A DNA stretch of 64,000 nucleotides from contig CM066303.1 in assembly GCA_033807695.1 (NCBI GenBank), positions 3,720,001-3,784,000 of the forward strand, read 5' to 3'. This stretch comes from Daedaleopsis sinensis. Lineage: Eukaryota > Basidiomycota > Agaricomycetes > Polyporales > Polyporaceae. The notes beneath the pieces were generated by a model. The model made no database searches. It was not told the origin of the DNA and worked only from the letters and a program-made list of their open reading frames with translations. Shown here one piece after another: positions 2,789-20,376 of the stretch (positions are counted from its first letter, which is position 1; every line of letters begins with the position of its first letter). The translations under genes and the position numbers were made by a program.

Positions 2789-3257
2789 TACGAGACAGAG
2801 AAGTAGACAGACAGCTGCGAACTGTCCGAGTCATGTACTAGTAGGTAGCTCGACGCGATAGTCGTTGACCAGGCTGAGGATGGCGGCGGCAGCAGCCTTG
2901 ATTTAGATCACCGTCGAGATCAGCGCGCTGATGTAAGAGAAGGTGTTTGCCGAGTCTGTCCCAGTGGCTGCCTGCAGTGCTCTGCAGTGCCCCCGCAGTA
3001 AGTACTACCTTCCGGCCGCGGCGTAAGCCCACTGTATCCCGGTAACCGTCATTCGACCTATTTTGCAGTCGACCATAATCGGAACCCAGTCGTTCGGCAC
3101 GCCTGCGCTATGTTCATAGTAGCACGTCCGGCCGCAGCCAAACGATGTTCGAAGAATGCAAGCACATGATTGTGGAAGGTGTTCGTGCCAGCCAAGGGGT
3201 ATGTCGTCCCTCACTGTAGTGTCGACCGGACGCCGTTCAAGCTTTCAGGTCTACCGT
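2789..3257. other. F-box gene upstream region up to the retrotransposon
   Basis: This is the probable 5' region of the F-box gene, cut at 3,257/3,258 by the gypsy-type insertion. No open frame here can be supported. The last bases before the LTR (ACCGT, 3,253-3,257) reappear at the other end of the element as (A)CCGT at 15,950-15,954, which marks the target site. Confidence 0.5.
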
Positions 3258-4164
3258 TGATGAGCCTCAGGACCAGCTAGGCCCCGGAAACACCACGCAG
3301 CCCATCACTATTCGCGCCCGTCAGTCAATTCACGCAGTATGAAGACGAGCGGCTTCACAAGGAAGGCGAGCGACTACCGAAGGAGCGAGTACGGAGACAT
3401 GCCATTCCAAGGGTCGAAGGAGCCGATGCCGAGCTGCCGGCGGCTGACCAAGGTCGCCAGAGCTCTAGCCAGGACAGAGGAGGCGATCGATCGAGGGTCT
3501 GGTCTAGGCGACCGCCACGGAGTCCAGCAATTGGTACGAAGGTCGTCGGAAGAGGCACGGAAGACAAGGGAGTGAGGGGGACGGCCTTCCGAGGCATATG
3601 AAGACGAGCGGATGGACTTCAGACGCGATCACGTGGTGACGCGCCACAAGACTAAGCGCTCTCGTGACCGCGGATGCAAGTCGAGCGGCGACGTGATAGG
3701 CTCGGTGCAAACACCTACCTAACCACCGGAGTGCGCCGTAGGGGTTCAGGAGAGGAGGATCGCGACGTGAGCGTGGGAGGAGCAGGGTTTCCTATGATTG
3801 GACGATTGGTAGGATAGTTGTAGTTTATTTGGTGACGATTTGTACAGTATATAAGCCAGCAGGATTGCGGCCCAGCAAAGCAGCGCAGTAGCTCCAGAGA
3901 TCGAGTCCGAGTCCAAGAATCATCTAGTCGACACTCAATTGAAGACCGTCCGTCTTCAAACCTCCTCTTGCAGACTAGCCTCACCCACGGAAGTTGCTTG
4001 ACTTCCATCTGAAGTTGCTCAACTTCCTTGTCTATCGCCGACGAGCTACGTGAAGAAGAGCGACTACACCGGGAACCTGTCCTCCACCTCGCACCCTACT
4101 AGGTAGCTGATCTCGTGCTCGTTTGGGTGTGTGTTTCGCCCAGCGACCCAGAGTTACCCCATCA
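3258..4164 (+). repeat. 5' LTR of the gypsy element
   Basis: This 907-bp direct repeat matches 15,044-15,950. The termini form a short inverted repeat, TGATG and CATCA. By eye I found two differences from the 3' copy, both transitions (near 3,414 and 3,473). It contains a TATA box at 3,848-3,854, so U3 probably ends near 3,880. Two near-copies of a short GAAGTTGCTTGACTTCC-like phrase sit close together near 3,977-4,030. Short open frames within the LTR are the same in both copies and are unlikely to be coding. Confidence 0.95.
3848..3854 (+). promoter_or_regulatory. TATA box of the LTR promoter
   Basis: TATATAA lies about 280 bp before the internal end of the 5' LTR, the expected place for the genomic RNA promoter. 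The identical sequence is in the 3' LTR at 15,634-15,640. Transcription probably starts about 30 nt downstream, near 3,880. Confidence 0.6.
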
Positions 4165-4167
4165 TTC

Positions 4168-4185
4168 TGGAGCCCACCGCGAGGG
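4168..4185 (+). other. Candidate primer-binding site of the gypsy element
   Basis: Three bases after the 5' LTR the sequence reads TGGAGCCCACCGCGAGGG. It begins TGG, as expected for a site complementary to the CCA end of a tRNA. I could not assign the tRNA. Position and the TGG start are the only support. Confidence 0.5.
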
Positions 4186-4598
4186 GTACAAGAACAGTCT
4201 CCACCGGTTCCGGCTCAAGAATCCCACGTTTGCGGCCGACGCGGAGCGAACGTATCCGTCGCCTCCATCGACAAACCGAACAGGCTTTAGAGGAAATCGA
4301 AGCAGAAGACCCCGAGAGAGCAGAGCAGCTCACTACCGTTATCGAGAACAACTTCGCAGTTTTCGCAGACTCTCCGCTTACCGAACTAGAGGACGCTTCC
4401 GAAGAAGAGCAGGAGGACATTGAAGTTCCGGACCATCCGTTCCTGACTTCAGAATCAATTAGTAACCCAAGACCTACGCTATCACATACCGCAGGGGCCT
4501 TCAACCTACCTAGGAACCCCCTTCCTTCCCTGCTAGCCTACGCCGCTCAAATATTACCTACGGCTCTACCACCCGTAGTACCACCCACAATCCATTCA

Positions 4599-7013
4599 AT
4601 GGCTAGCGCAGATCTATCGAAACTACCGTTGCGTACGGAAAGGAGTGCGCCCCAATTCGATGAGGAATCTAAGGACACCGTCGAGCGGTACTTTGACGAC
4701 CTTGCCCGACTTCTGAAGAAGCATAGCATCACTGATGAACAAGCTTGCAAGGCGGCGGCGGTCGACTACATACCAGCGGGAGTCGCCAAGCGATGGAAGT
4801 CCCTGCCGACGTTCTCGGACACCCAGAAGACGTATGAAGAATTCAAGACGGAGGTTCTATCCTTCTACCTCGGGACGGATGCCCAGTACACCTGGACACT
4901 GCGAGAATACAATGAAGTCATCGGGGAAGCCGTACGTACGGGGATATCCAGCCTCGAAACCTACATGAAGTTCTACGGCAAATTCTATCCCATCTACCGG
5001 TACTTGCATGCGAAGACCGAGCCAGAGCTAACGGAGCGCGACGCGTCGACAGCCTTGCTACGGCTAGTTCCTATGCAGTACACAATGGCGGTATCCGCGT
5101 GGTTAGCACACCAGGTGCCTGCAAAACACAAAGAAGAAGCTTACACGGTCGCGCAAGTTCATGAAGCAATTTCCTATTGTCTGGCGGACGGAGGCCCGTT
5201 CGGCGGGATCGGAAGTTGGTCAACTGCGACGTCCGGTAACCTCGCTCGAGTCAATCCTCCGGCTCCAGCCATGGCCTCCACGGTTACGGTGAAAACCGAG
5301 CCGGATCTATCGGCCTTCAAGCGGGAGATGATCTCCATGATGAGTTCGACCATGCGCGACTTCGTGAGCCAGCAGAGGATGCAAGCCACGCAACCACCGC
5401 AACAAGGGGAACAATACCCTCCACCACCACAACCTCCCCAGGGAAGGTACCAGCAGCAGCAAGGGGGCCTATACGGACGTAATCCACCCGCTAACGACGA
5501 ATGCATCTACTGTGGCCTAACAGGATGTCGGTTGAAGACGTGCCCAAAAGTCGCAGAGGACATGACGGCGGGACTCATCCGGAAGGACGTATACGACAAA
5601 ATCATCCTACCAGGAGGCGGTGTGATCCCTCGTAGTCTGCCAGGGAACTGTATGCGCGATAGAGTCAATGCTTGGCACGAAAAGAACCCAAACCAACGAG
5701 CGCGAGGAACCATGAGCAACATCTATCAGTTCGAGATGCAGGAAGACGAGCGTACCTTGGAAGAGGAGTTAGAAGTCCTCATGCACAAGGCAAACATGGT
5801 TAAAGAGCGCATGAACACTCGCTCGGGACGGCAGGTTTTTGATGGAGTCGAGCTAGAGACGCGGCCTCGACGTATTACGCGCAACTCGGAGAAAGGGAGG
5901 GACGACACGCGGGCAGGGACGCCCGAGTGTGATCAGCCGCCTCACCAGCCGACGAGAGAGAAGGGGAAGGAGAAGGAGAAGCACGTTACCTGGGACACGA
6001 GGGCAAAAGAGCCTGAAGAGACCTTCCATCCCTATGCGCCGACTGTGGTACCCAGAGGCCAGGAACTGCCGAAGAAGGACGAACCACCGGTCAGAAGGAC
6101 CGCAGCGATCATCGACCCGACCGCGGAAGAAAGAGTCTTCAACCGAAGCTTCGGAGACAGCCAGAGTATCACAGTGTCACCAGCCGAGCTACTCAGTATT
6201 TCTCCAGGACTCAGGAAGCGAGTGCATGAGGCCACAGCTCTCAGGCGAACGCAAGTTAGAGACGAGCAACTGCAGGAAGTGACCAACCGGGAAGGCGAGC
6301 GGCCTCGGAACAAGGTACTAGTGACCGAAGTCGCTGAAGACGAAGACTTCCCAGAAGACAACCTCCAGACAGCAGGAAGTTCATCCTCAGGGACTGGAAG
6401 GCCGACGCTTGGATCCTTTGCATTTGTAGACCTGGACTATGAAGGCAGCGAGGACGAGGACGAAGAGCCAAAGTCGCACAATGCCCCGTATGTAGCTCCG
6501 GGACAAGGCTATCCTGCGAGCAGTCGGCGGAAGTCAACCATCGTAGCCTCGGAATCGGAGAAGCTGAGGTTGCTGTTCACCTGGGTAGCTCGAACGGACA
6601 CGCCGACAGAGTGTACACTCGACGATGGGTCCCAGATCGTCGGTATAAACGACCAAATCGCTTATGCGTTGAAGATCCCCTACGATCCTACCAAGCGAAG
6701 GAGGATGATCAGCGCAAATGGGACGGTCGACATGACACTCGGTCTAGCAAAGAACGTGCCTGTGGAATTAGGTGGCGGGATCGTGGTCTACCTCCAGATG
6801 CATGTTGTGAAGGCAGCGCCTTACCAGATCCTCCTAGGAAGGCCGTTCATGACGGTGATGCGTGCGAGGTCGAGCAACTCTATGGATGGCCAATTGTCAA
6901 TTACCGTCACTTGCCCTAACTCGAACCGCGAATTGACGCTACCGACCTACGCGCATGGAGACTCTCCGAGTTATGGACTCAGAGTCGAGGGTTTTCGGGC
7001 TTCGAGGATCTGA
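4599..7013 (+). CDS. Gag-protease polyprotein of the gypsy element
   Basis: This frame encodes the capsid/nucleocapsid protein and, at its C-terminal end, an aspartic protease. A retrotransposon Gag region (about 4,650-5,190) is followed by a proline/glutamine-rich linker and a zinc knuckle at 5,502-5,543 with spacing CX2CX4CX4C, where the usual histidine is cysteine. A long acidic and basic linker follows, then a retropepsin-like domain with LDDGSQI near 6,618 and ILLGRPF near 6,829. The residue after the active Asp is Asp rather than the usual Ser/Thr. The first ATG is at 4,599. However, the frame is open without any ATG back to 4,131, inside the LTR, and those 156 codons look coding (acidic, Glu-rich), so the real N-terminus may lie upstream. 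The TGA at 7,011-7,013 overlaps the pol start codon by one base. Confidence 0.85.
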   Translation: MASADLSKLPLRTERSAPQFDEESKDTVERYFDDLARLLKKHSITDEQACKAAAVDYIPAGVAKRWKSLPTFSDTQKTYEEFKTEVLSFYLGTDAQYTWTLREYNEVIGEAVRTGISSLETYMKFYGKFYPIYRYLHAKTEPELTERDASTALLRLVPMQYTMAVSAWLAHQVPAKHKEEAYTVAQVHEAISYCLADGGPFGGIGSWSTATSGNLARVNPPAPAMASTVTVKTEPDLSAFKREMISMMSSTMRDFVSQQRMQATQPPQQGEQYPPPPQPPQGRYQQQQGGLYGRNPPANDECIYCGLTGCRLKTCPKVAEDMTAGLIRKDVYDKIILPGGGVIPRSLPGNCMRDRVNAWHEKNPNQRARGTMSNIYQFEMQEDERTLEEELEVLMHKANMVKERMNTRSGRQVFDGVELETRPRRITRNSEKGRDDTRAGTPECDQPPHQPTREKGKEKEKHVTWDTRAKEPEETFHPYAPTVVPRGQELPKKDEPPVRRTAAIIDPTAEERVFNRSFGDSQSITVSPAELLSISPGLRKRVHEATALRRTQVRDEQLQEVTNREGERPRNKVLVTEVAEDEDFPEDNLQTAGSSSSGTGRPTLGSFAFVDLDYEGSEDEDEEPKSHNAPYVAPGQGYPASSRRKSTIVASESEKLRLLFTWVARTDTPTECTLDDGSQIVGINDQIAYALKIPYDPTKRRRMISANGTVDMTLGLAKNVPVELGGGIVVYLQMHVVKAAPYQILLGRPFMTVMRARSSNSMDGQLSITVTCPNSNRELTLPTYAHGDSPSYGLRVEGFRASRI

Positions 7014-10000
7014 TGAACAGTCAGGGAGAGGTCGCTCTCGTCCTCGACTATGACGCAAGAACGGGTCAAGTTTTCACGACGGCGTACAAGGACTTAGAAA
7101 ACCTAGAAAATTCCACAATTCAGTCAGCATATCTATCGGCCTGTGACGACTCCGAGACAAAGCAGAAAATCAAAACCATGTTCTCGAAAGTACCGATCCA
7201 GGAATCGGAAGGGGATAGAATGCGGAGCCGACAACCACATCGCGAAGTCGACCGAGCCCTCTTCCGAGGACGAGCACTCCCAGTATACGCTACGAAAACC
7301 AGAGGCAGAAGAGCAGTCAGAACCCGGTCTAGGTCCAGCGAAGCAGCAAGAGCGAGCGAGAAATCCGAGCCGAGCGAGCAAGAACAAGAGGCGGAAGGCG
7401 AGCAACTTCCAGAAGACGACGAGCGGCAAGCAGCCACCGAGGACCCCGAGAGCGTACGCAGCTACGTGAAATCGAAGAAGAAGTACAAGCCAGTGGATAA
7501 GAAAGTACGACCAGTGATTGGGGAGCTTCCAAAGCAATACAGAATTGTACGGGAGATAATCGGCGACCCTCTCGAAGGGATGAAGCCGCTTGACCTCAAT
7601 CCAAAGCCTTTTGAACCAACTGGGCGGTACACAGCTGAACGACGCGAGAAGCTCCACAAAGTCAATGCTCACCTATCGGAAGAAGAGCTAGCTTTGCTAG
7701 ACGACATGATGTGCAAACAGGAGCAGGGATTCGCTTGGGAAGACAGCGAGCGTGGCCACTTCAGGACGGACATGTTCCCACCAGTGAAGTTTGCGGTTGT
7801 GCCTCACACTCCGTGGATTGAAACGAATTTCCCCATTCCACCCGGAACCTACCGACAAATCTGTGAGATCATGAAGAAGAAAATAGAATCAGGCGTATAC
7901 GAACCCTCAAATGCGTCTTACCGATCCAGGTGGTTCTGTGTGCTGAAGAAGGACGGGAGTCTGAGGATCGTCCATAGTCTGGAGCCGCTCAACAGAGTCT
8001 CTATTCAACACAGCGGTGTACCACCGATACCCGACCACATGGCAGAACGCTTTGCAGGGCGTGCGTGCGGGACGACCTTGGATCTATACGTTGGATACGA
8101 CGAGAGGATCCTGGACGAAGAGTCGCGCGACCTCACGACCTTCCAAACGCCTTTCGGAGCCATGCGACTGACGACGCTACCAATGGGATGGACAAATTCA
8201 GTACCCATCTTCCACGACGACGTGACCTACATATTGCAGCCTGAAATTCCGGATACGACGATTCCCTACATCGACGACGTACCTGTCATTGGACCGGAGT
8301 CTTCCTACGAACGGGAAGATGGTTCTTTCGAGTGTATGAAGGGGAATCCAGGCATCAGGAGGTACATCTGGGAGCACATGCAAGACGTCAACAGGATTGT
8401 ACAGCGGATGAAACATGCGGGAGGTACCTTCTCGGGCAAGAAGTTCGTCTGCGCGGCGCGCGACTTCGTAGCGGTGGGACATCGATGCACACCGGAAGGC
8501 CGTCTTCCAGAGAGAGGTTGCGTGGATGCGGTACTCAAATGGGGACCGTGTAAAAATGTTTCCGAAGTACGGTCGTTCCTGGGAACGGTAGGCGTTGGGA
8601 GGATCTTCATCAAGAACTTCGGGAAGAAGGCCGCGCCATTAGTCAAGCTCACGCGGAAGGACGTACCGTTCGAATGGGGAGAGGAACAGGACAAGGCCAT
8701 GGAGGATCTAAAGACAGCATTAGTGGAATCCCCGGCCTTGAAGTCGATCAACTACGAGTCGAAGGCCCCGGTAATTCTAGCGGTGGACACCTCTTATATT
8801 GCGGTCGGCTACCAGCTGTGTCAAGAGGATCCGGAAGACCCGCGGAAACGATACTACAACCGCTTTGGATCCATTACCTTGAACGAAAGGGAAGCCAGAT
8901 TCTCGCAACCGAAGCTCGAGCTATATGGTCTGTACCGAGCATTGAAGGCGCTCCGCTTCTGGCTGGTCGGTGTACGAAACCTAATAGTAGAAATGGATGC
9001 GACATCTACGAAAGCCATGATCCAGAATCCGGATGTCGCGCCGAATGCAGTCATGAATAGGTGGATCATTAGCATCAATATGTTCCACTTCGAAATGCGG
9101 CACGTACCTGGAATCTCCCATGGACCGGACGGTCTCAGCCGACGACCTGCGCAGCCTGAAGACGAACCAGAAGAAGCAGACAACGGAGAATTCGATGACT
9201 GGGTGGACAACATGTACGGCTTTACACACCTCATAAATCCACCTCCACACTTGGGAGACGCTCCTCTACAACACGAGGTTAAGCGGAAAACGAGCAACTT
9301 CAAGACGGAAGCGATGGGCTTCAGTGCGCTCATGCAGCAGACAAGCGGGACGGCGGGCAAGCTACCGGACATTCCAGAAATTGACTACGCAATCGTACCG
9401 CGCACGGAGGTTGCCCAGAAGTTTGACCACAGAATAGCGAACGTCTACGAATTTCTGTGCACCAAGAGAAGACCGAAGCTGGTTCAGAAGGAGCTCGATG
9501 CGTTCGTCAAATACGCAGGACAATTCTTCGTGAAGGATGGCCGACTATGGAAGATAGCGAAGAATGGGAACCACAGGAGAGTACTACCCCCAGAACTACG
9601 GGCGAAAGCGTTCGTGAGCATGCACGACTTCATAGGACACAGAGGCGTACAGGCGACAATCTCCTTCGTGGCCGAACGGTTCTGGTGGCCAGAAATGAAG
9701 GCGGATGTGGCCTGGTATGTGAGAAGCTGCCACCAATGTCAAATTCGACAAACTACGCGGATCTACATACCACCGTCAGTTTCCTATCCTGCGGCGCCGT
9801 TCATACGAGTTCACGTCGACTCTATGGACATGCCTGGCTCGTACAAGCACTTCTTCCATGCGAGGTGTGCAACCACAAGTTATGCTGAAGGGCGGGCAAG
9901 TACAGTCCAAACAGCGAAGGCGGTCGGCGACTGGATCTATCAAGACCTGCTGTGCAGATGGGGAGCGCTGTCCGAGATCGTTTCAGACAACGGAAGTCCA

Positions 10001-10783
10001 TGGGTTGCAGCGTTGGAGTACCTGGCAAAGCAATACCACGTCAAGCACATACGGATCTCAGGATACAACTCACGAGCGAACGGAATCGTCGAGCGGCCTC
10101 ATTTCCACGTCCGGGACGCGCTCTTCAAAGCATGCGAAGGTGATACAACGCAATGGGTGGCGCGGGTATATTCAGTACTCTGGGCGGACCGAATCACAGT
10201 ACGCAGGAGACTAGGGTGCTCACCCTACTACGCGGTAACTGGGACGGATCCAATCCTGCCCATGGACATCACAGAAGCCACGTACCTGCTGCCTATACCG
10301 ACGAAGCTCGTGTCCACAACGGAGTTGATCACCAACAGGGCGATGGCCTTGCAGAAAAGACCGGAGGACATAGCGTGGTTGCGGTCAACCGTCTACCGAA
10401 CACGCGTCCAAGCTGCGGAGCTATTCGAGAAGGAACACAGCGCAACCATCCGAGACTTCAACTTCAAGCGAGGGAGGCTGGTTCTGATGCGGAACACGGC
10501 AATTGAGAAGTCGCTCAACAGGAAGATGAGACCACGGTACCTAGGCCCTCTAGTAGTGATATCGCGCAACAGAGGCGGCGCGTACATCATTGCAGAACTC
10601 GATGGGACCGTCTTCGATCGACCCATAGCGGCCTTCAGAATCATCCCCTACCTAGCGCGTGAGGACCCAATCAACTTCAATATTGAGGAACTGGACGCAC
10701 CACAGAGCCGACTGCAAGAATTAGAAAACACAACAGAAAACTACGAAGAGGAAGGATTAGCAGACGACGACGAACACGGCTGA
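7013..10783 (+). CDS. Pol polyprotein (RT, RNase H, integrase) of the gypsy element
   Basis: The 1,256-aa protein copies the element RNA into DNA and integrates it. After a charged N-terminal linker, reverse transcriptase spans about 7,800-8,350, with the first catalytic Asp in TLDLYVGY (near 8,080) and YIDD at 8,267-8,278. RNase H follows (LAVDTS near 8,780). The integrase has an HHCC zinc-binding segment (9,620-9,750, CHQC visible), catalytic Asp in VHVDSMD (near 9,815) and SDNGSP (near 9,985), and Glu in GIVERPH at 10,091. It ends in a GPY/F-like module (RYLGPLVV near 10,540). No chromodomain was seen. All catalytic residues I can recognise are present and the frame is unbroken. It lies in the -1 frame relative to gag and starts at the ATG within TGATG. 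Confidence 0.97.
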   Translation: MNSQGEVALVLDYDARTGQVFTTAYKDLENLENSTIQSAYLSACDDSETKQKIKTMFSKVPIQESEGDRMRSRQPHREVDRALFRGRALPVYATKTRGRRAVRTRSRSSEAARASEKSEPSEQEQEAEGEQLPEDDERQAATEDPESVRSYVKSKKKYKPVDKKVRPVIGELPKQYRIVREIIGDPLEGMKPLDLNPKPFEPTGRYTAERREKLHKVNAHLSEEELALLDDMMCKQEQGFAWEDSERGHFRTDMFPPVKFAVVPHTPWIETNFPIPPGTYRQICEIMKKKIESGVYEPSNASYRSRWFCVLKKDGSLRIVHSLEPLNRVSIQHSGVPPIPDHMAERFAGRACGTTLDLYVGYDERILDEESRDLTTFQTPFGAMRLTTLPMGWTNSVPIFHDDVTYILQPEIPDTTIPYIDDVPVIGPESSYEREDGSFECMKGNPGIRRYIWEHMQDVNRIVQRMKHAGGTFSGKKFVCAARDFVAVGHRCTPEGRLPERGCVDAVLKWGPCKNVSEVRSFLGTVGVGRIFIKNFGKKAAPLVKLTRKDVPFEWGEEQDKAMEDLKTALVESPALKSINYESKAPVILAVDTSYIAVGYQLCQEDPEDPRKRYYNRFGSITLNEREARFSQPKLELYGLYRALKALRFWLVGVRNLIVEMDATSTKAMIQNPDVAPNAVMNRWIISINMFHFEMRHVPGISHGPDGLSRRPAQPEDEPEEADNGEFDDWVDNMYGFTHLINPPPHLGDAPLQHEVKRKTSNFKTEAMGFSALMQQTSGTAGKLPDIPEIDYAIVPRTEVAQKFDHRIANVYEFLCTKRRPKLVQKELDAFVKYAGQFFVKDGRLWKIAKNGNHRRVLPPELRAKAFVSMHDFIGHRGVQATISFVAERFWWPEMKADVAWYVRSCHQCQIRQTTRIYIPPSVSYPAAPFIRVHVDSMDMPGSYKHFFHARCATTSYAEGRASTVQTAKAVGDWIYQDLLCRWGALSEIVSDNGSPWVAALEYLAKQYHVKHIRISGYNSRANGIVERPHFHVRDALFKACEGDTTQWVARVYSVLWADRITVRRRLGCSPYYAVTGTDPILPMDITEATYLLPIPTKLVSTTELITNRAMALQKRPEDIAWLRSTVYRTRVQAAELFEKEHSATIRDFNFKRGRLVLMRNTAIEKSLNRKMRPRYLGPLVVISRNRGGAYIIAELDGTVFDRPIAAFRIIPYLAREDPINFNIEELDAPQSRLQELENTTENYEEEGLADDDEHG

Positions 10784-11233
10784 CACTCACGTTGACGAGG
10801 ACGTCAAATGGAAAAAGTGGGGGGGAGGAAGTCGCTTGACTACGGAAGTCAATTCCTCTACAGGCCGAAGAGCGCTTCAAGAGGCGCTTCGCGCGTCGGT
10901 CATCTCGGAGATCACACAAGAAGAAGAGCAGAAGGCGATGCGATACATTCGGGATACTAGATACAGTACAGATTAAGACGGACAACAGAAGCTGAGCGCG
11001 ACGGGATACGGGAAAGAAAACCAGAAGGAGACATTACAAAGCCCAGAGCGACAGGAGGGAGACGGAGAGACTAGTCCGCGGGAGACAGAGACGAGCAGAG
11101 GAGATATATGCGAAAAACAGAAAACAAGACAGCGCGAGCCGCGCGACGACAGGACGAGACGACGACCAAGCAGGAGATGACAAGAAAAGCTAATAACAAG
11201 AAGTCCGTGGACGCGCGCGCGTCGAAGAAGTCC
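10784..11233. other. Junction between pol and the antisense cargo
   Basis: This 450-bp stretch is strongly purine-rich on the plus strand and carries no gene. It starts with a polypurine-tract-like motif 33 bp after the pol stop. The bases following that motif (GAAGTCGCTTGACTACGGAAG) resemble the short GAAGTTGCTTGACTTCC-type phrases in the LTR. It probably holds the 3' ends of both the sense pol transcript and the antisense gene that stops at 11,234. Confidence 0.5.
10816..10828 (+). other. Second, internal polypurine-tract copy
   Basis: AGTGGGGGGGAGG here is identical to the 13 bases that directly abut the 3' LTR (15,031-15,043). It sits just after the pol stop, where a normal gypsy element would have its tract. 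This suggests that the antisense module was added between an original tract and the LTR, or that the tract was duplicated. Confidence 0.55.
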
Positions 11234-13498
11234 CTACTCGGCATTGCGAAGAAGCTCGAGGAGATCCTCACGATAGCCATTGGACGCCACCAAGTCCTTG
11301 AAGGACCGCACGTCGTCGCACCCTTCGATCTTCACGCCAAAATCGAGCTGGGTCTGTCGAGTCTCGCGGCGGGAAAGCTGCCGAATGGACACCAAGTCCT
11401 CGACGATGCGCGCGCGTGCGAGGCTGACCTGCGAGCGAAGATGGTTGACCTTCGCGACGACCTCCGGCGAGAAGCTGACCGGCTCCGGCGACCTGCGCTT
11501 GGAAGATGAGGACTTGATCGAGATCTTGAGGGGCGTCGCCGGTTGGGAAGTCGACTTGGAGGGGCTCGGCTTCTCCTTCTTGACGCTGCCAGAAGCGCGA
11601 GACGAACGAGGAGGCGGCGTAGAGTCGTCGGGTTCGGCCTTGCTGTTGCCATAGTCCTCGAGCAGGCGGCCCTTCTCGTCGAGCGAAGGATAACGCGTAG
11701 GACCCTCCGGGTACGGGTAGACGGGGGTGTCCTTCCGGATGGTCTTCGGACGAAGACGCTCCTGGAGCGCGGCCTTGTCGACGGAGAGGAATTTGTGCGA
11801 GTTCCTCTCGAACTGGCGGACGAAGTCGACGGCGAGAAGACGGTCGGCGGGCGGCAGCTGCGAGGGTTCCCGGAAGGAAAACCCAACGCCGTTGTACATC
11901 GCGCCGATGCGGGCATGCACTAGAAAGAAGACAAGAAGTCAGCAAGAAGACCAAGAGAAGTAGGGGGAAGGTACTGACCTTTGACCGTCCCCTGGACACT
12001 CAGGTGGTCGTACGCGCAAGAGAAGCTTTTCCCCTTCTTCTTGCAGAAGTTGCAGCGGAACGCGGAAGGGTCCGGACGTCTGCAGGTGACCCCGGCGCGA
12101 CGGCACTCGTCGCAGTCGCCCTCGATCTGCACGGCGCTGGACAACTCCACGGAACCTTGGCGAGTGGAAGGAGGCTTCTTGTCGCGCTTCTTGACCCTAG
12201 GCGACAACTCGACGACGGGAGGCGGACGTTTGCGGGGCGAGGTGCGGGACTTCTTCTTAGGAGGCTCCTCCTCCTCGAGTTGGTCGACTTCTTCTTCGCC
12301 TTCATCGTCGACCTCGCCCTCGGCATCGCGGTCGGAATCGTCCGCGGGAGGAGAAACCGCCTTACGCTTTCCCTTGTCGACGGGCTTCTTGGGCGGCTCG
12401 CTCTCATCGGTGCTGAAGAAGAGGGGCGTCTTCTTCCTCTTCAGCGGCAGCTGAGACAGCGGAGGAGGAGGAGGTTGGTCAGGCGAGAGGGGGGAGCGTG
12501 TGCGGAAACGACGAGGAGAGTCGCGCTGGGCAGCGTCGGCCAGAGGCTCGTCGTCAGAAGCTTCCTCTTCGGGAACGTACTCGACACCAGTGACCATCGC
12601 AGCCAGGAAGGCGTCGCCAGGAAGGGCATCGGGGTCAGACGAAGGCGCGGTTGACGAGGAAGTGGGGCGTGTGACGAGAATCCTCGTGAGACGCTTCTTG
12701 TCGAGGACCGGGACGTAACGCATGCCGGACAGCAAAGGCAAGAACTGGTCGACGCGAGTGTCGATGGTTTCACGAGAGGCGCGCATGTCGGGCGGGTAAT
12801 CGGCGACCTCCATCCAGCGCGGCTGGATGATCTCGTGGTACCAATTCACTGCAAGGAAGAAGCGGTCTTAGTCAAGCAAGAGTGAGGGCGAAGAACGTGA
12901 GTACTTACGCTCGAAGAAGCCCAGCCGAAGGCGGTGAGCCTGGAAGGCGATGTCGATCTCCAGCGGGGACTCCGTGATGGTGCTCGAAACCGCGAACAGC
13001 CGCAACCGGCGAGAAGCCAGCGCGTACGAGCGAAAGAACTCCGAGACCAGGGAGGGCGGCGCGTAAAACTCGAACGTCGGGAGCGCGGCGAGGAGCAGGG
13101 GATCCAGGTACCAATTCCACTCCGGGACGAGACGGTGCTGCGAAAAAGGAATGTGTCAGCGAGACAAGACTTGGAAGGCCGGGACGGCGTACCAGAGCCA
13201 TGACGATACGATCAAACATGGCCTTGAACGTGCCATATGAGAACGTAGCGAGCTGGTCGTCGGTGTACTCTTCCAAGATCGCCCGGAAGTCGCTGATCGT
13301 CAGCGGAGCGGCGTCCTGATCGCGAAGCTCGTCAGGCGTAGTAGGAACGGGCTCCTCACAGCCAAGTCGATCGGATTCACGCGTGAATTGCAACGGGAGC
13401 CACTTGAACAGCTCCTTGGGGATCGGTCGCCGAGGAGCATCGGAAGACGAGCGAGTGGCGGCGACGTTGGAAGACGAGCGACGGTTGGAAGCGGACAT
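11234..13498 (-). CDS. Antisense cargo gene B: Zn(II)2Cys6-containing protein
   Basis: Four exons join in frame: 13498-13193, 13137-12909, 12848-11979 and 11919-11234, giving 696 aa. All three introns (55-60 nt) have GT-AG ends. Residues 424-456 hold six cysteines spaced CX2CX6CX9CX2CX8C, which fits the fungal Zn(II)2Cys6 binuclear cluster. Just before it is an acidic stretch and a basic patch (KKKSRTSPRKRP), a plausible nuclear signal. The N-terminal 200 residues are hydrophobic/aromatic and of unknown fold; the C-terminus is Ser/Pro-rich and charged. In most Zn2Cys6 regulators the cluster is N-terminal, so its central position is unusual. Being antisense to the element's genomic RNA, its introns cannot be spliced from that RNA. 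The function is unknown; a DNA-binding regulator is an inference. Confidence 0.75.
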
Positions 13499-13563
13499 GG
13501 TGGGCGATGGATGAGAAGACGAGAGGAGAATGCACGAAGGCGGACAACCAGAAGGCCAAAACG

Positions 13564-13571
13564 TTTATTAA
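13564..13571 (-). promoter_or_regulatory. Possible TATA box of antisense gene B
   Basis: On the minus strand TTAATAAA lies about 66 nt before the ATG at 13,498. It is AT-rich in an otherwise GC-rich region. This is only positional evidence. Confidence 0.35.
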
Positions 13572-13671
13572 GGGCGACAGTCAGAAGAACGTGAAGGGAA
13601 CCGTGAAGTACAACGTCCAAATGCGGTAATCTAAGCGCTCTCCGCGCGACGGCGATCGAGGGCGGCCCCAA

Positions 13672-14959
13672 TCAGTCGCACATCAAAGGAATAGAACCGA
13701 AGACTTCATCCTCGTCTGACAGAGAGGACGGCGACCTTTCCAGCTTCTTGATGGCCGCGTGGAGGGCGGACTGCTCAATACGCACCCCGCGCAGTTCAGC
13801 GGCGACCAATTCCAGACGCGCGAGTACTTCCGAAAAATGAACGCGGTACCGGTCGTCGCGCGCCAGGTCGCGCATGACCTCCAGGAGTTGAAGTTCGTGT
13901 TGCAGAGTGGCATGCACTGAGTCCAGGAAGTGGAGGCGGTACGGCAGGCGGTGCGTCTGGACCAGGTCGACAAGGAACGCCTCAAGGCCGTTGGAGAAGA
14001 AACACTGGTCGATGGCGACGGACACGCGGGCAAGTAGGTCGGAAACGCCGACGAGAAGGCCGTCATGAAGCATGCTCCAACCATACTGGGAAGGTGTCAA
14101 TCAAGCGCGAGAAGCATCAGGCCGAGAAGCTCACCAAAAGTTGTCCTAAACGGGAAAGCGCGTGTTCATACACAACGCGGGGACAGCCGTGGTCGACGGA
14201 TACCGTCTCGAAGAACTCGATTTGCTCAACAATGTGCGCACGAAGCGGGGAGAGGAGTTCAAGGGCCAACTCGCGGTGCGAGCTGACTTGGAGGGCGAGC
14301 GTACGCGGGAGGACGGTCGACGACATGAAAAATGGAAGTTGATGAACTTCGAACGCAGTTACAGCGGCTTTATACGACACGCGGCTACTCAAAAGTGGAT
14401 GTCCTCTCGGAGGCTGGCAAACTCCTGATCTATCTCCTCCATTTCCTTTTCGACCTTCCGGATCCGGGCATCAACCAGAATAGACTCCGTGATCAAGGAT
14501 CCTCCGGCGCGATTGAGGACGCGGCGCGCGCAGAGTTGCTTCCGGAGCCGCTGCTGACAGGCAATGCGACGAGCATCGAGGTCGGCCCGACGAGCGCACC
14601 GACGGGACCGGGCGACAAGCTCTTGGAAAAGGAAGAGCTGACGGTCAGCCAAGGCAGGCCAGCCCTCGGTGATCGTATTCTCGGTCCGTTTCACGAAGTC
14701 CGCGGCAACCTCGCCATCGTCCCCCAAGGTGATCAAAGTGTCCTGCCATGAAGACAGTCAGCCACGAAGACGAGGGCCTACACGCGGAAGGAGGACGACG
14801 TACCACCAGTTCAGCGATATGGTCGTAAGAATCGTAGATGATTCCAACGTCCTCTTCAGTACGAGCGGCAGCAAGAGCCTCGAACTCAGAGATCGCGACT
14901 TCAAGCTGACGGACAGTCTCCGTGAGGATGGGGACGTTGAGGAAGATGAAGGCAGACAT
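13672..14959 (-). CDS. Antisense cargo gene A: helical protein of unknown function, probably frameshifted
   Basis: Exons are 14959-14804, 14742-14135 and 14085-13672, with GTACGT and GTGAGC donors and CAG acceptors. The product of about 390 aa is rich in Leu, Glu, Arg and Ala and looks largely alpha-helical, with coiled-coil potential (for example RKVEKEMEEIDQEF). I recognise no domain. Exon 2 is 608 nt, one short of a multiple of three, although its two flanking junctions are both phase 0. The frame breaks at 14,389-14,392 within a TTTT run, so a single-base loss is likely. The gene starts 85 bp inside the 3' LTR boundary and shares strand and spacing with gene B, so the two may work together. 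Confidence 0.65.
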
Positions 14960-14994
14960 TGCGAAGGATGAAAACCGAGGATGGAACGAGGGAG

Positions 14995-15002
14995 TTTATA
15001 TA
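14995..15002 (-). promoter_or_regulatory. TATA box of antisense gene A
   Basis: TATATAAA on the minus strand lies 36-43 nt before the ATG at 14,959 and 42 bp from the 3' LTR. It gives the cargo its own promoter pointing away from the LTR, with a very short leader. Confidence 0.5.
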
Positions 15003-15030
15003 CGCGCAAACCGAGGACGGTTCGAATGCA

Positions 15031-15043
15031 AGTGGGGGGGAGG
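15031..15043 (+). other. Polypurine tract of the gypsy element
   Basis: AGTGGGGGGGAGG directly precedes the first base of the 3' LTR, the expected position of the plus-strand primer. Confidence 0.8.
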
Positions 15044-15950
15044 TGATGAGCCTCAGGACCAGCTAGGCCCCGGAAACACCACGCAGCCCATCACTATTCG
15101 CGCCCGTCAGTCAATTCACGCAGTATGAAGACGAGCGGCTTCACAAGGAAGGCGAGCGACTACCGAAGGAGCGAGTACGGAGACATGCCATTCCAAGGGT
15201 TGAAGGAGCCGATGCCGAGCTGCCGGCGGCTGACCAAGGTCGCCAGAGCTCTAGCCAGGGCAGAGGAGGCGATCGATCGAGGGTCTGGTCTAGGCGACCG
15301 CCACGGAGTCCAGCAATTGGTACGAAGGTCGTCGGAAGAGGCACGGAAGACAAGGGAGTGAGGGGGACGGCCTTCCGAGGCATATGAAGACGAGCGGATG
15401 GACTTCAGACGCGATCACGTGGTGACGCGCCACAAGACTAAGCGCTCTCGTGACCGCGGATGCAAGTCGAGCGGCGACGTGATAGGCTCGGTGCAAACAC
15501 CTACCTAACCACCGGAGTGCGCCGTAGGGGTTCAGGAGAGGAGGATCGCGACGTGAGCGTGGGAGGAGCAGGGTTTCCTATGATTGGACGATTGGTAGGA
15601 TAGTTGTAGTTTATTTGGTGACGATTTGTACAGTATATAAGCCAGCAGGATTGCGGCCCAGCAAAGCAGCGCAGTAGCTCCAGAGATCGAGTCCGAGTCC
15701 AAGAATCATCTAGTCGACACTCAATTGAAGACCGTCCGTCTTCAAACCTCCTCTTGCAGACTAGCCTCACCCACGGAAGTTGCTTGACTTCCATCTGAAG
15801 TTGCTCAACTTCCTTGTCTATCGCCGACGAGCTACGTGAAGAAGAGCGACTACACCGGGAACCTGTCCTCCACCTCGCACCCTACTAGGTAGCTGATCTC
15901 GTGCTCGTTTGGGTGTGTGTTTCGCCCAGCGACCCAGAGTTACCCCATCA
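15044..15950 (+). repeat. 3' LTR of the gypsy element
   Basis: This is the 907-bp copy of 3,258-4,164, offset by 11,786 bp, with two transitions seen. It ends CCCATCA and is followed by CCGTG, matching the ACCGT before the 5' LTR. Confidence 0.95.
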
Positions 15951-17919
15951 CCGTGTACGTTTTTGATTAGAAGGGCTCGTGCGGAAGTCACCACGCATGG
16001 GTTCAACTTCGATATCACAAGCAAAGCCTTGGGCGTATCCGGTTCCTACTCTCGGAGTTGTCACGCCCGGGCTCGAAGTGCCCCAAACTTTTCTCAGGCC
16101 GTTCTGACTGGAGCGTACACTATTCGCTCGTCTGCTGTTTGTTCAAGGACTCTTGGCCTTTGATAAAATTCTGTAGACCCCGCACAAGTAGGAGAATTCT
16201 CGATCTCCTCTCGGCGAGGCCTGTGAGCGGCGCGCTGCGTACAATCTGGGACCGCGCAATGCGCATGTATTTCCAAGTTGCTGTATTTCTTTAGATTAGT
16301 CTGGTCTTCGTGGTGTATTTTGATTCTACAGTAAGAAATGCACATAATATGAGGCCACGGCGTACACTCCTACCATACATTCTCCTACACGTGCACGGCA
16401 CGCATTACTAGGCACTGCACTGAGCAGAACGCCGTTCTAAATGATTGAAATCGACGTCATTCCATGAAGTCTGCGTAGACTCGGAGCGGGCATCCGGATA
16501 TTTTGTACGGGAGAAAAAGCGTCGGATTTTGGCTGCACAAGGCATCCTAGGGCCAAAAGTCGTACAAAAGTCGTTGAAAGGGCTCCTTTGAGCGACAAGG
16601 GTTACCTCCAGCGGCCGATTTTGCACGCCTTTTCGCCCGTCAAAAATATCGGGATGCCCGTCGTGATAGTTTCGGAGGAGGAAAGTCGGATTACGGTCAC
16701 ATGATATATGCGACGCGCTATAGACGCGACGACTCAAGAGCGCTTGAGCACCCGACTCTTGCTTCCGCTCCCCCACCTCGGCTTGTTTTCTCATGGCTAT
16801 CACTAATGAAGATAATAGTACGACTTCTCTGCACCTAGTGATGCGATGCAAGCTGACCACCAGAAAGCCTACCATCACTATGTCACACGGTCTGAGGCCT
16901 GAGGGGGTGACTATATGCGCCCTAACCTGTGAGGGTACCCCGCACGGGTGACATTCACACCCATCACAAGGTGCATCACAGTGCCTGTAACTCTAGAGGC
17001 CTCAAGCCATAACATGAAAGCCTCAGATGCCTCGATTGATGAAAAGGTACGGACACCGATGGTTACCCTTTCTCTTACACGTCGGTGATGCTGACCATTG
17101 TTTCTTTCTGCTGCAGGTGACTCCTCTAAAAAGTGCACCTACCTACCGGGGTGCACATCATCAGCGTGCCCAGTGGTCTGTCCGTGACCCGCTGAACTGC
17201 GGGCAAAGGTGCATTTGAAGCATTTTCGTTATGAGATCGCGCTCTAATACTTACCTCAAGGTTCATCACACAGCAAGTCACCGACATTCTCGAGACCTCA
17301 ACAATGGCCATCGCTTTCTTCTGCGCACGGTGTGTTTTCTGAGAACCGCGACATGCTCTATATATACGAATATCTGAGCGTTTTGCTAGTTGACAGCCGA
17401 CGTCTCCTGTGCGCACATTCAAGTACACTGGTGCCGGGATGAATCTCCCAGTTCTTCGACCACCTCATCTCTCCCTCTCTTTAAGCTTCAAGTACCAACC
17501 ATGGATCCTCTGTTAACTCTGCCAACTGAGAGCCTGCCGCCGGGACTGCCTTTTCAGGATATTGGGAAGACTATGTAGGCGCCTACTGGGCGTCACGGCG
17601 GGTGGACTTGGGGCTGACAACGCGACATAGGGCCCCTTTCGAAGTCGCACAAAATCTCAACGTCTTCCTCTTCCTCGATACACAACTCCTCGAACAGCCT
17701 CCTCAGACTTTGCAAACGCAGCGCTCAGCCCGGCGAGACGAAACGCGCGGGTACACGAAAACCTTATTCGCGTCACGAAGCTGATCTAAGACCGTGATGG
17801 CTGGAGGAAACAGCCAGCGGAGTGCGAAGTCCAAGTCACGACTCGGTAAAAGCCACCTCGCCTCTCCTCCTGCCTCCATCCTGACCCATTCTGCTTTCCT
17901 AGCTTTGCCCAACTTCACG
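15951..17919. other. Intergenic; possible small gene remnants
   Basis: I cannot support a complete gene. Between 16,911 and 17,428 the minus strand has several short open pieces bordered by good GT/AG signals (for example one starting MAIVEVSRMSVTCCVMNLE before GTAAGT), which may be a small multi-exon gene. On the plus strand a TATA-like CTCTATATATACG near 17,353 precedes a 25-codon frame (17,501-17,578, starting MDPLLTLPTE) with a good start context; it could be a first exon or a remnant. The 471-nt open frame at 16,408-16,878 (minus) looks fortuitous. The region 16,500-16,700 is AT-richer and may be transposon-derived. Confidence 0.35.
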
Positions 17920-20376
17920 ATGTCAAGTACCGCAAAGAACAGCATCTATGGCTACCCTGGCTCAGCCGAGCTCGGCGACCGCGTCCCTGGCCAGACGCCT
18001 GTTCGTCGGCTCGCTATGACCAAGGACAAGCTCACGACTCAGCCCCTGGACGGCATCGACACCATCTGCGACATCCTAGACTACGCTGCGCGGACACATG
18101 GAACGAAGAACTCGTTTGGATGGCGCGACGTTGTCGACATTCACGAGGAGAAGAAGGAGGTCAAGAAGGTCGTGGGTGGGAAGGAGCTCACGGAGACCAA
18201 GACATGGAAGTACTTCCAATTGAGCGACTACAAGTATATCTCCTTCGTGCAGGTCAAGGAGGCTGCCATCGAGGTCGCTGGCGGTTTGCTCAAGCTCGGC
18301 GTTGAGAAGACGGACATCCTGAACGTCTATGCGGCGACAAGGTATGTCCCTCTACTGGTCTCCGCTATAGCACCTTCCCAATCCCTCCTGCCAGCCCCAA
18401 CTGGCAACTGATGTCATATGGGTGCAACCTCATCGGTACCGCCATCGCCACCGCATATGACACGCTCGGAGAGTCCGGACTCCAGCATTCCCTCAACGAG
18501 CCCGAGTGCGTCGGCATGTTCACAAACGCGGAGCTGCTCCAGGTCGTCGCGAACGTAGCCGAGCACGTCCCGTCGCTGCGACTCGTTATCTACGATGGTA
18601 AGCCGAAGCAGGCACTCGTCGACAAGATCCTAGCGGCACGCGAAAACATCAAGGTCATGTCCATCGACGAGTTGCGCAAACTCGGTGAGGGCACGACCAC
18701 GGAGGACCTGAAGGCCCGGCGGCCTGCCCCCAGAGATATCTCGTGCATCATGTACACGAGCGGTACCACCGGTGCGCCGAAAGGCGTCGTCATCACTCAC
18801 AGCAACCTGGCTGCGTCCGTCGGGGCTGTCTACCAACTTCTCGGGCACCATCTCAACGCCGACGACACATTCCTCGCCTATCTCCCGCTCTCGCATATCC
18901 TGGAGTTCGTCGTCGAGCTATGCCTGTTTTACATCGGCATGACGTTCGGGTACGCGCGCGTCAAGACCCTTACAGACGCGTCAGTGCGCAACTGCATAGG
19001 CGACATCCGTGCATTCAAGCCGTCGATCATGATTGGTGTCCCCGCCGTGTGGGAGATGATCCGCAAAGGGATCGTTGCCAAGATCAACTCGGGCGGGACG
19101 TTGAAGAAGGGCGTTTTCAACGGCGCGTATAGCGTGAAGAAGGCGGGTGTCCCCGGACTCAGCCAGCTCGTCGACTCGGCCGTCTTCAGCCAGGTCAAGT
19201 CTGCCACAGGTGGCAAGCTGCGCCTCGCGCTCTCTGGTGGCGCGGCACTCAGTGCGGAGACGCAGGAGTTCTTGTCCATTGCGCTCGTGACCATGCTCCA
19301 AGGTATGCCCAGGCGCCCCCGCCTCCGCCCCCTGAGGCGTGCATGTGGCGTATGTGCTAACGCTACCCCGCGTCTGCAGGCTACGGCATGACTGAGTCGT
19401 GCGGCATGTGTGCGGTCCTGCCCCCGGAGTTCATGCAGTACAACACTGTCGGACTTCCGGTACCCTCTATCGAGATCAAGCTGCTCGACGTCCCCGAGGC
19501 GGGCTACTTCTCGACGAACGAGCGGCCGCAGGGCGAGGTTTGCATCCGCGGGCCGTCGGTCACGAAGGGCTACTACAAGCGCGATGACCTCAACAATGAC
19601 GAATCAATCTTCACCAAGGACGGCTGGCTCAGGACGGGTGACGTCGGCCAGTGGAACGCGGACGGCACGCTCAGCCTCATTGACCGGTAAGCACACGCAT
19701 CCAGCAGCACTAGTCCCGCAGCTGCGGCCGAGAGCTGACGCGTCCCCCCACGTTCACAGCATCAAGAACCTTGTCAAGCTGCAAGGCGGCGAGGTAAGCC
19801 TTCCTTCCTGTCCCCCACCGCCCCCCCGAACGAACCCCAACAGGGGGCCTTGCTGCGCTGAGCGCCGGAGCTAACCTTGTTTGACGCCCCACCGCAGTAC
19901 ATCGCGCTCGAGCGCCTGGAGTCGATCTACAAGTCCTGCAACCTCGTCTCGAACATCTGCGTGCACGCCAACTCGAACGCGAAGCAGCCGATGGCGGTCA
20001 TCATCCCGCACGCGCAGCACCTCCGCCACGCGCTCGAGGCCAAGGACATAGGCGTCGACCCCAAGCAGGCGCTCCCGGAGCTCTGCCACGCGTCCGCGGT
20101 CGCGGAGCTCGTGCTCAAGGAGTGCAACGCGATCGGGAAGAAGAACGGGTTCAAGACGATGGAGCTCCTCCAGGCCGTCGTGCTCACGCCCGAGGAGTGG
20201 ACGCCCGAGAGCGGGCTCGTCACCGCCGCGCAGAAGGTCCAGCGGAAGAAGGTCGCGGAGGCGTTCGACAAGGAGATCCAGGTGCGTTGTCGTGTACCCC
20301 CCCCCCCCATTCAAACGAAAGGGTGCTTTGCTGAACGGATCTGGTTCGTCTGTAGGCTGTGTACAAGTTCGACTGA
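17920..20376 (+). CDS. Long-chain fatty acid-CoA ligase (FAA1/FAA4 type)
   Basis: This enzyme activates long-chain fatty acids with ATP and CoA through an acyl-AMP intermediate, for lipid synthesis and beta-oxidation. Six exons join in frame: 17920-18341, 18395-19302, 19380-19686, 19760-19793, 19898-20281 and 20356-20376, giving 691 aa, the size of yeast Faa1. Key motifs are the AMP-binding P-loop YTSGTTGAPKGV (near 18,753), TAYDTLGESGL, YGMTESCG after intron 2, and the fatty acyl-CoA synthetase signature starting DGWLRTGDVG (19,620) and running across introns 3 and 4 through RIKNLVKLQGGE. Exon 4 is only 34 nt. The ATG at 17,920 is chosen because the conserved N-terminus (YGYPGSAELGDRVPG) follows; upstream codons are open but not conserved in kind. 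It converges on the HPC2 gene. Confidence 0.96.

Follow-up and report, generated by a model that had tools for sequence, protein, structure and literature searches.

Intron-bearing antisense genes between pol and the 3′ long terminal repeat in a Ty3/gypsy lineage of Daedaleopsis sinensis

A 64,000-nucleotide (nt) stretch of the Daedaleopsis sinensis genome (contig CM066303.1 of assembly GCA_033807695.1, positions 3,720,001 to 3,784,000; hereafter the window) contains a Ty3/gypsy retrotransposon at 3258-15950. Between pol and the 3′ long terminal repeat (LTR) of this element lies a 4.26-kb segment (10784-15043) that encodes three predicted minus-strand genes, g1, g2 and g3, with products of 696, 201 and 169 amino acids (aa) and three, one and one introns, respectively. 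Comparison of copies and families shows these predicted gene structures, an antisense place of g1 and g3 that is fixed in three gypsy families, and conservation of the g3 intron. Based on these results we favor, with moderate confidence, the view that this gypsy lineage carries an antisense accessory gene set of its own that serves the element, with g1 as a putative nuclear regulator.

As the first-pass annotation had proposed, the element appears young. Its LTRs (5′ LTR, 3258-4164, TGATGAG...CCCATCA; 3′ LTR, 15044-15950; both on the plus strand) are 907 bp each and equal at 905 of the 907 positions (2 mismatches), and the whole is flanked by a 4-bp target-site repeat, CCGT (3254-3257 and 15951-15954). 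Two intronless frames occupy the plus strand. The first is a gag-like open reading frame (ORF) at 4599-7013, open from 4131 with its first ATG at 4599, which has an aspartic protease near its 3′ end; its match to Pfam gag-asp_proteas (E 1.1e-05, 26.4 bits) falls below the curated cut-off of 28.2. The second, pol (7013-10783), encodes reverse transcriptase (RT), RNase H and an integrase zinc-binding domain, with the Pfam matches RVT_1, RT_RNaseH_2/RT_RNaseH and Integrase_H2C2 in the order expected of Ty3/gypsy elements. The ATG of pol overlaps the gag stop codon (TGATG, 7011-7015), and coupled termination-reinitiation is a possible route to pol expression. A plus-strand polypurine tract (PPT), AAGTGGGGGGGAGG, precedes the 3′ LTR (15030-15043), and a similar tract is present in related copies. 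The same 14-mer is found directly behind pol (10815-10828, plus strand), making 2 matches in the window against a chance mean of 0.01, and the pair brackets the antisense gene segment. This inner tract may be a trace of the acquisition of the segment, or it may serve as an internal initiation site for plus-strand DNA. All 31 aligned rows carry it unchanged, which is not strong evidence because a 14-mer is too short. A search of the 64-kb window for tRNA genes found none.

From the 3′ LTR toward pol the antisense genes follow one another in tandem in the order g3, g2, g1, all on the minus strand. The predicted g3 gene (14959-14389) has two exons (14804-14959, with the ATG at 14959, and 14389-14742) separated by a 61-nt intron with GT-AG ends (14743-14803). 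The g2 model (14326-13672) also has two exons (14135-14326, with the ATG at 14326, and 13672-14085), here around a 49-nt intron (14086-14134, GTGAGC..CAG). Four exons make up g1 (13498-11234), namely 13193-13498 (ATG at 13498), 12909-13137, 11979-12848 and 11234-11919 (the stop codon ending at 11234), and its introns measure 55 nt (13138-13192, GT-AG), 60 nt (12849-12908, GTAAGT..CAG) and 59 nt (11920-11978); the third exon encodes a basic/acidic low-complexity stretch and a cysteine cluster (residues 424-456). On the same strand a TATA-like box, TATATAA (14996-15002), starts 43 nt before the g3 ATG, and another, TATAAA (14369-14374), starts 48 nt before that of g2; upstream of g1 there is only an AATAAA at -71, which could equally be the poly(A) signal of g2. 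The first-pass annotation had described two minus-strand genes in about 4.2 kb, five minus-strand GT-AG introns, and TATA-like boxes belonging to the genes. The interval stands, bounded by the end of pol at 10783 and the start of the 3′ LTR at 15044, and so do all five introns, one of which had its end at 12,850 rather than 12849; the genes number three, not two, and boxes are retained for g3 and g2 only. All five introns are 49-61 nt long and, with GT..AG ends on the minus strand, read CT..AC on the plus strand. Because the sense ORFs gag and pol are intronless and the antisense genes bear introns, we infer that the antisense orientation should shelter the introns from splicing of the sense RNA.

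Selection on the three genes was assessed by aligning the window with 29 near-identical copies of its family (family A) and two diverged ones, L069 and L070 (31 rows, 9 of them without g3 coverage); L029 and L043, halves of one insertion-split copy, were left out, as was at least one more copy of family A, at C8:3503936. The 29 copies hold 374 distinct variants, and none of these creates a stop codon. Among g1 variants, 126 are synonymous and 71 change an amino acid, which is 0.25 of the ratio expected from opportunity (binomial p 4e-22); for g3, with variants drawn from 20 of the 29 copies, the counts are 15 and 0 (ratio 0, p 1e-8), and for g2 they are 21 and 24 (ratio 0.52, p 0.035), these p-values being indicative only because variants that share descent were treated as independent and the window served as reference. 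When singletons alone are counted the ratios are 0.37 (g1), 0.92 (g2) and 0 (g3), and the value for g2 implies that recent constraint on this gene is weak. Variant density is highest in the introns (130 per kb), as compared with 29-94 in the genes and 104 in the intergenic parts. This pattern shows purifying selection on the predicted g1 and g3 proteins.

Insertions and deletions (indels) follow the same gene models. In 30 rows (L070 left out) there are 20 distinct indels, and the 18 of at most 16 nt are all noncoding (11 intergenic and 7 intronic), although coding sequence makes up 75% of the stretch; random placement would give this with a probability of about 1e-11. One of the 18 (15028, in L052) is the end of that copy's homology, which leaves 17 clean cases, and the two larger indels, both in g2, remove 46 and 83 nt. 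The reading frames are conserved in other copies: of the 31 rows, 30 have an intact g1 and 28 an intact g2, and g3 is intact in all 22 rows that cover it. Where all three genes are covered (22 rows), all are intact in 20, and 19 of these retain every splice site as well. One family A copy, L051, has AT in place of GT at the donor of g1 intron 2 and is otherwise intact, a natural splice-site variant. Apparent losses of g1 intron 3 at C4:3792725 and C2:2643081, where the g1 match runs unbroken across the intron, were rejected; in each a 1-nt insertion makes a 60-nt intron readable.

Genome searches covered 51.6 Mb on 24 contigs, with 108 of 123 candidate RT matches scored. Relatives of g3 were found at 45 places, 34 of them in family A and 11 at 28-31% identity. 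A PPT/LTR pattern search placed 44 of the 45 within 284-359 bp of a PPT/3′ LTR junction on the opposite strand; the exception, C10:1682309, has lost the end of the internal region and has a PPT/LTR signal, perhaps its own, about 27.6 kb further on. At 40 of the 45 places an RT match lies within 12.5 kb in the expected orientation. Conversely, the 34 family A RT places have a downstream antisense g1 at 31 and g3 at 30, the three without g1 being one at a contig end and two in a cluster on C6. Families C (3 of 3 RT places) and D (7 of 7) carry antisense relatives of both genes. With the family C version of the g1 cysteine domain as query and E up to 10, 44 places were recovered, all in gypsy elements (34 in A, 3 in C and 7 in D); three of the family A places have no RT match nearby. 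The first-pass annotation had proposed asking whether homologues always sit antisense between a gypsy pol and a 3′ LTR. Within this genome the answer is in its favor, with 44 of 45 g3 places antisense to an adjoining PPT/3′ LTR junction and 44 of 44 cysteine-domain matches in A, C and D. Host homologues that are mainly free-standing were not found in this genome, the cysteine-domain matches being all element copies. Outside these three families there are decayed pieces at C7:950735, C6:3622907 with C6:3622773, and C6:3610411 (56-60%, stops present), a g2 remnant at C8:2881984-2882286, and a weak g1 match at C2:4769255 (36%, E 1.6e-7).

The comparison of families also bears on the age of the set. 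A family C g3 (L071), 30% identical to that of the window at the protein level, begins with an ATG preceded at -47 by a TATA-like box, and its intron, of 52 nt with GT-AG ends, occupies the same position and phase as the g3 intron of the window. The two g3 exons also give separate matches at the remaining places of C and D and at C8:558278 (11 of 11). On the strength of the shared position and phase at such low identity and of these separate exon matches, the intron has most likely been kept in the antisense gene since before the split between A and C/D. Intron 3 of g1 behaves differently: the C and D matches leave no room for it (for example, 411 nt for query residues 4-141), so either A gained it or C/D lost it. 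The genes are conserved parts of the element. The first-pass annotation described them as cargo; because related families contain g1 and g3 relatives that are about 30% identical, a set of accessory genes of long standing is the better description.

The predicted proteins offer some guidance as to function. The cysteine cluster of g1 has the spacing CX2CX6CX9CX2CX8C in family A and CX2CX6CX9CX2CX9C in family C, all six cysteines being kept, and the protein also carries basic clusters and acidic runs. Exon 2 of g3 is modeled as three helices with a mean pLDDT (predicted local distance difference test) of 86, from an alignment of two sequences; the model of g2 exon 2 (mean pLDDT 59) is too weak to use. 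In protein databases g1 has one relative, among the 7994 best word-sharing candidates scored, and g3 has one. The RT-RNaseH part of pol has 1782 relatives at E<=1e-20, with Grifola frondosa and Meripilus lineatus among the 120 matches listed; this contrast is weak evidence because the length window of the search disfavors intron-split gene calls. Both relatives are metagenome proteins. P0001 is 73% identical to g1 over 52% of its length and reads through 20 unrelated codons at the site of g1 intron 2 (against 21 in the window), as expected from a 57-nt intron. P0002 is 87% identical to g3 over 31% of its length and reads from LTR/PPT-like sequence into g3. These two proteins support the predicted gene structure elsewhere. 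A search of viral contigs with pol found no relative.

In the explanation that we favor, an accessory set serving the element, transcription of g3, g2 and g1 would start in the integrated copy and run toward pol, each of g3 and g2 having its own TATA-like promoter. Their spliceosomal introns would be wrongly oriented for the genomic RNA and would be copied intact in each round of retrotransposition. The proteins would serve the element itself, with g1 as a nuclear DNA- or chromatin-binding regulator that acts on LTR transcription or integration; the conserved six-cysteine cluster, basic clusters and acidic stretches are the grounds for this proposal. The helical g3 protein and g2 would be partners of g1. 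The target of g1 and the direction of its effect, activation or repression, would be no more than a guess. A bolder form of the idea is that antisense coding is in itself an arrangement that shelters introns and regulates genes. An old lineage would then have kept, over long evolutionary times, a spliced antisense regulatory module consisting of a six-cysteine zinc-type factor and helical partners, subject to intron turnover (g1 intron 3 occurs in A and not in C and D), with which to switch its LTR or to escape the host; this we put forward tentatively, as something less likely than not to hold in full.

Several observations weigh against an accessory role. With respect to distribution, neither the 6 RT places of family B (73% RT identity) nor the 4 of family E (60-71% in pieces, for the most part 64-66%) show a g1 or g3 relative, which means either that not all related elements need the set or that their versions are too diverged. 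For five of the 45 g3 places, one of them half of a split copy, no RT match lies within 12.5 kb. Even with E up to 10, g2 was detected only in family A and in one remnant and not in C or D, and residues 1-239 of g1 have no match in C or D at E up to 1. With respect to constraint, the g2 singletons (18 nonsynonymous, 9 synonymous) look nearly unconstrained, and the truncated, diverged copy L070 has a 2-nt deletion in the g1 coding sequence besides a 791-nt deletion. With respect to the proteins, no Pfam family matches g1-g3 at E<=1, including Zn_clus, TRP28 (PF04195) and bZIP; a PDB sequence search with g1 returned nothing significant, nor did a comparison of the g3 exon 2 fold with PDB structures. 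The Zn2Cys6 cluster claimed for g1 in the first-pass annotation survives as a compatible spacing, seen in three sequences (family A, P0001 and family C, if the last gap is allowed up to 9), whereas the strict PROSITE-like consensus fits none of the three. Membership of g1 in the Zn2Cys6 (GAL4-type) family was rejected on that ground and for want of a Pfam match. CGG palindromes were likewise rejected as g1 sites in the LTR, where CGG..CCG is not enriched (2 observed against a shuffle mean of 6.8).

Some of these observations would also fit a different service. The accessory genes might counter host silencing or choose insertion sites, with g1 binding chromatin or a host factor and g2 and g3 acting as adaptors. 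The selection and position data suit this equally well, and both the lack of CGG..CCG enrichment and the failed Zn2Cys6 consensus point toward it, since the g1 cluster may on the latter account be a zinc fold of another sort; no domain match above cut-off in g1-g3 speaks for such functions, and we regard the idea as possible but rather unlikely. A role for the genes as recently transduced host sequences, passengers of one element that do it no service, is improbable. Whole genes with introns and promoter-like boxes do resemble captured genomic DNA, and two PPT copies bracket the segment. However, this genome yielded no free-standing relative (the weak match at C2:4769255 aside), relatives about 30% identical sit in two other families in the same place and on the same strand, and the copies show a synonymous excess. 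That excess, together with the lack of stops and with coding sequences free of small indels in the 29 copies and L069, argues for selection at the protein level. It thereby makes it very improbable that antisense RNA is the main product, regulating the element through double-stranded RNA while the proteins matter little, even though antisense transcripts of retroelements can regulate them (PMC7264820). Finally, we can hardly credit that the minus-strand frames are by-products of sense-strand composition or of a sense ORF, despite several overlapping plus-strand ORFs (e.g. 12004-12654) and a stop-free plus frame in 4 of the 8 exons (the others having at least one frame with only one or three stops), because the introns are the most variable part and contain 7 of the 18 small indels, none of which falls in coding sequence, as spliced minus-strand models predict, and because the place of an intron is conserved in a relative only 30% identical.

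Other features of these families and of the window were recorded in passing. Three family B RTs (C4:1833898, 1849907 and 1865916) follow one another on one strand at intervals of exactly 16,009 bp, as in a tandem array, whose unit is about 4.2 kb longer than the LTR-to-LTR distance of the window element (11,786). Five PPT/LTR-like junctions with the variant GGGGGGAGATGATGTGCCCC have no g3 nearby (C4:3958741, C5:1749926, C8:2890090, C10:2798470 and C11:792402) and perhaps belong to another or a non-autonomous family. The left-out halves L029 (C10:240129-244040) and L043 (C10:205401-208820) look like one family A copy split at the equivalent of window position 13566; they lie about 33 kb apart, and a large nested insertion seems to be the cause. 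A family A cluster at C9:1134150-1162900 comprises L055, L056 and L057, two of which stand face to face with their outer 3′ LTR ends about 20 bp apart. Elsewhere in the window there are two DUF6535 proteins on the minus strand (42150-43478 and 60016-61326) and a piece of an AMP-binding enzyme on the plus strand (18411-19391). DUF6535 is a basidiomycete family and, like the Grifola and Meripilus RT relatives, fits an agaricomycete host.

Antisense ORFs are known in some plant and other LTR elements, as the first-pass annotation stated; Grande, Retand and Boty are examples. In the plant Ty3/gypsy elements with such additional ORFs (aORF-3R; maize Grande with gene23, rice RIRE2, Silene Retand with TRP28) they likewise lie antisense between pol and the 3′ LTR, in a region that in Retand spans 2.9-6.6 kb as compared with 4.26 kb here; like g1 and g3, they are present in most copies and in several families, and the Grande antisense protein is nuclear (PMC11963269, PMC7264820). 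The main text of these two sources does not contain the word "intron". The element described here differs in having three genes, five introns, no TRP28 (PF04195) and a fungal host. Closer in host are the Boty-like elements of Botrytis cinerea and Sclerotinia, which Zhao et al. 2011 reportedly found to carry an antisense gene, brtn. In the passages that cite them, these are fungal LTR elements with brtn between pol and the 3′ LTR; they have one antisense gene mentioned and an ascomycete host, against three genes here. Extra genes inside an LTR element are also seen in gene transduction (maize Bs1 and others), but transduced genes occur in one or a few copies (PMC7264820), whereas g1 accompanies the RT at 31 of the 34 places of family A and at all 10 of C and D. 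In a literature search that reached few subscription papers, we found no description of an intron-bearing antisense gene set in a fungal gypsy element, and the accessible part of PMC3411680 makes no mention of antisense.

At the level of the protein, fungal Zn2Cys6 (GAL4-type) regulators share the six-cysteine spacing CX2CX6CX9CX2CX8-9C with g1, which departs from the strict pattern and from the Pfam models. The nearest functional parallel known to us is HBZ of human T-cell leukemia virus type 1 (HTLV-1), a gene that has a spliced form. HBZ is an antisense gene whose nuclear protein is important in the virus life cycle (PMC11963269). The HTLV antisense promoter lies inside the 3′ LTR (PMC7264820), whereas the TATA-like boxes here are found just on the internal side of the LTR border. 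The antisense place and the predicted introns of the present genes are compatible with such a parallel. Several genes are involved here and Pfam detects no bZIP; the comparison is one of how the systems might work. What antisense genes do in LTR retrotransposons is described as an open question (PMC7264820, PMC11963269). The present genes are young enough for selection to be followed across about 30 copies and old enough for families to be compared, which makes the question testable. They suggest a simple rule by which introns, and several genes each with its own promoter, can be retained in a retroelement, and they provide a natural system for watching intron gain and loss inside a retroelement. 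As far as our searches show, what goes beyond the known systems is that a fungal gypsy lineage carries, under selection, a set of antisense genes with introns, of which two are shared between families and one has kept the position of its intron.

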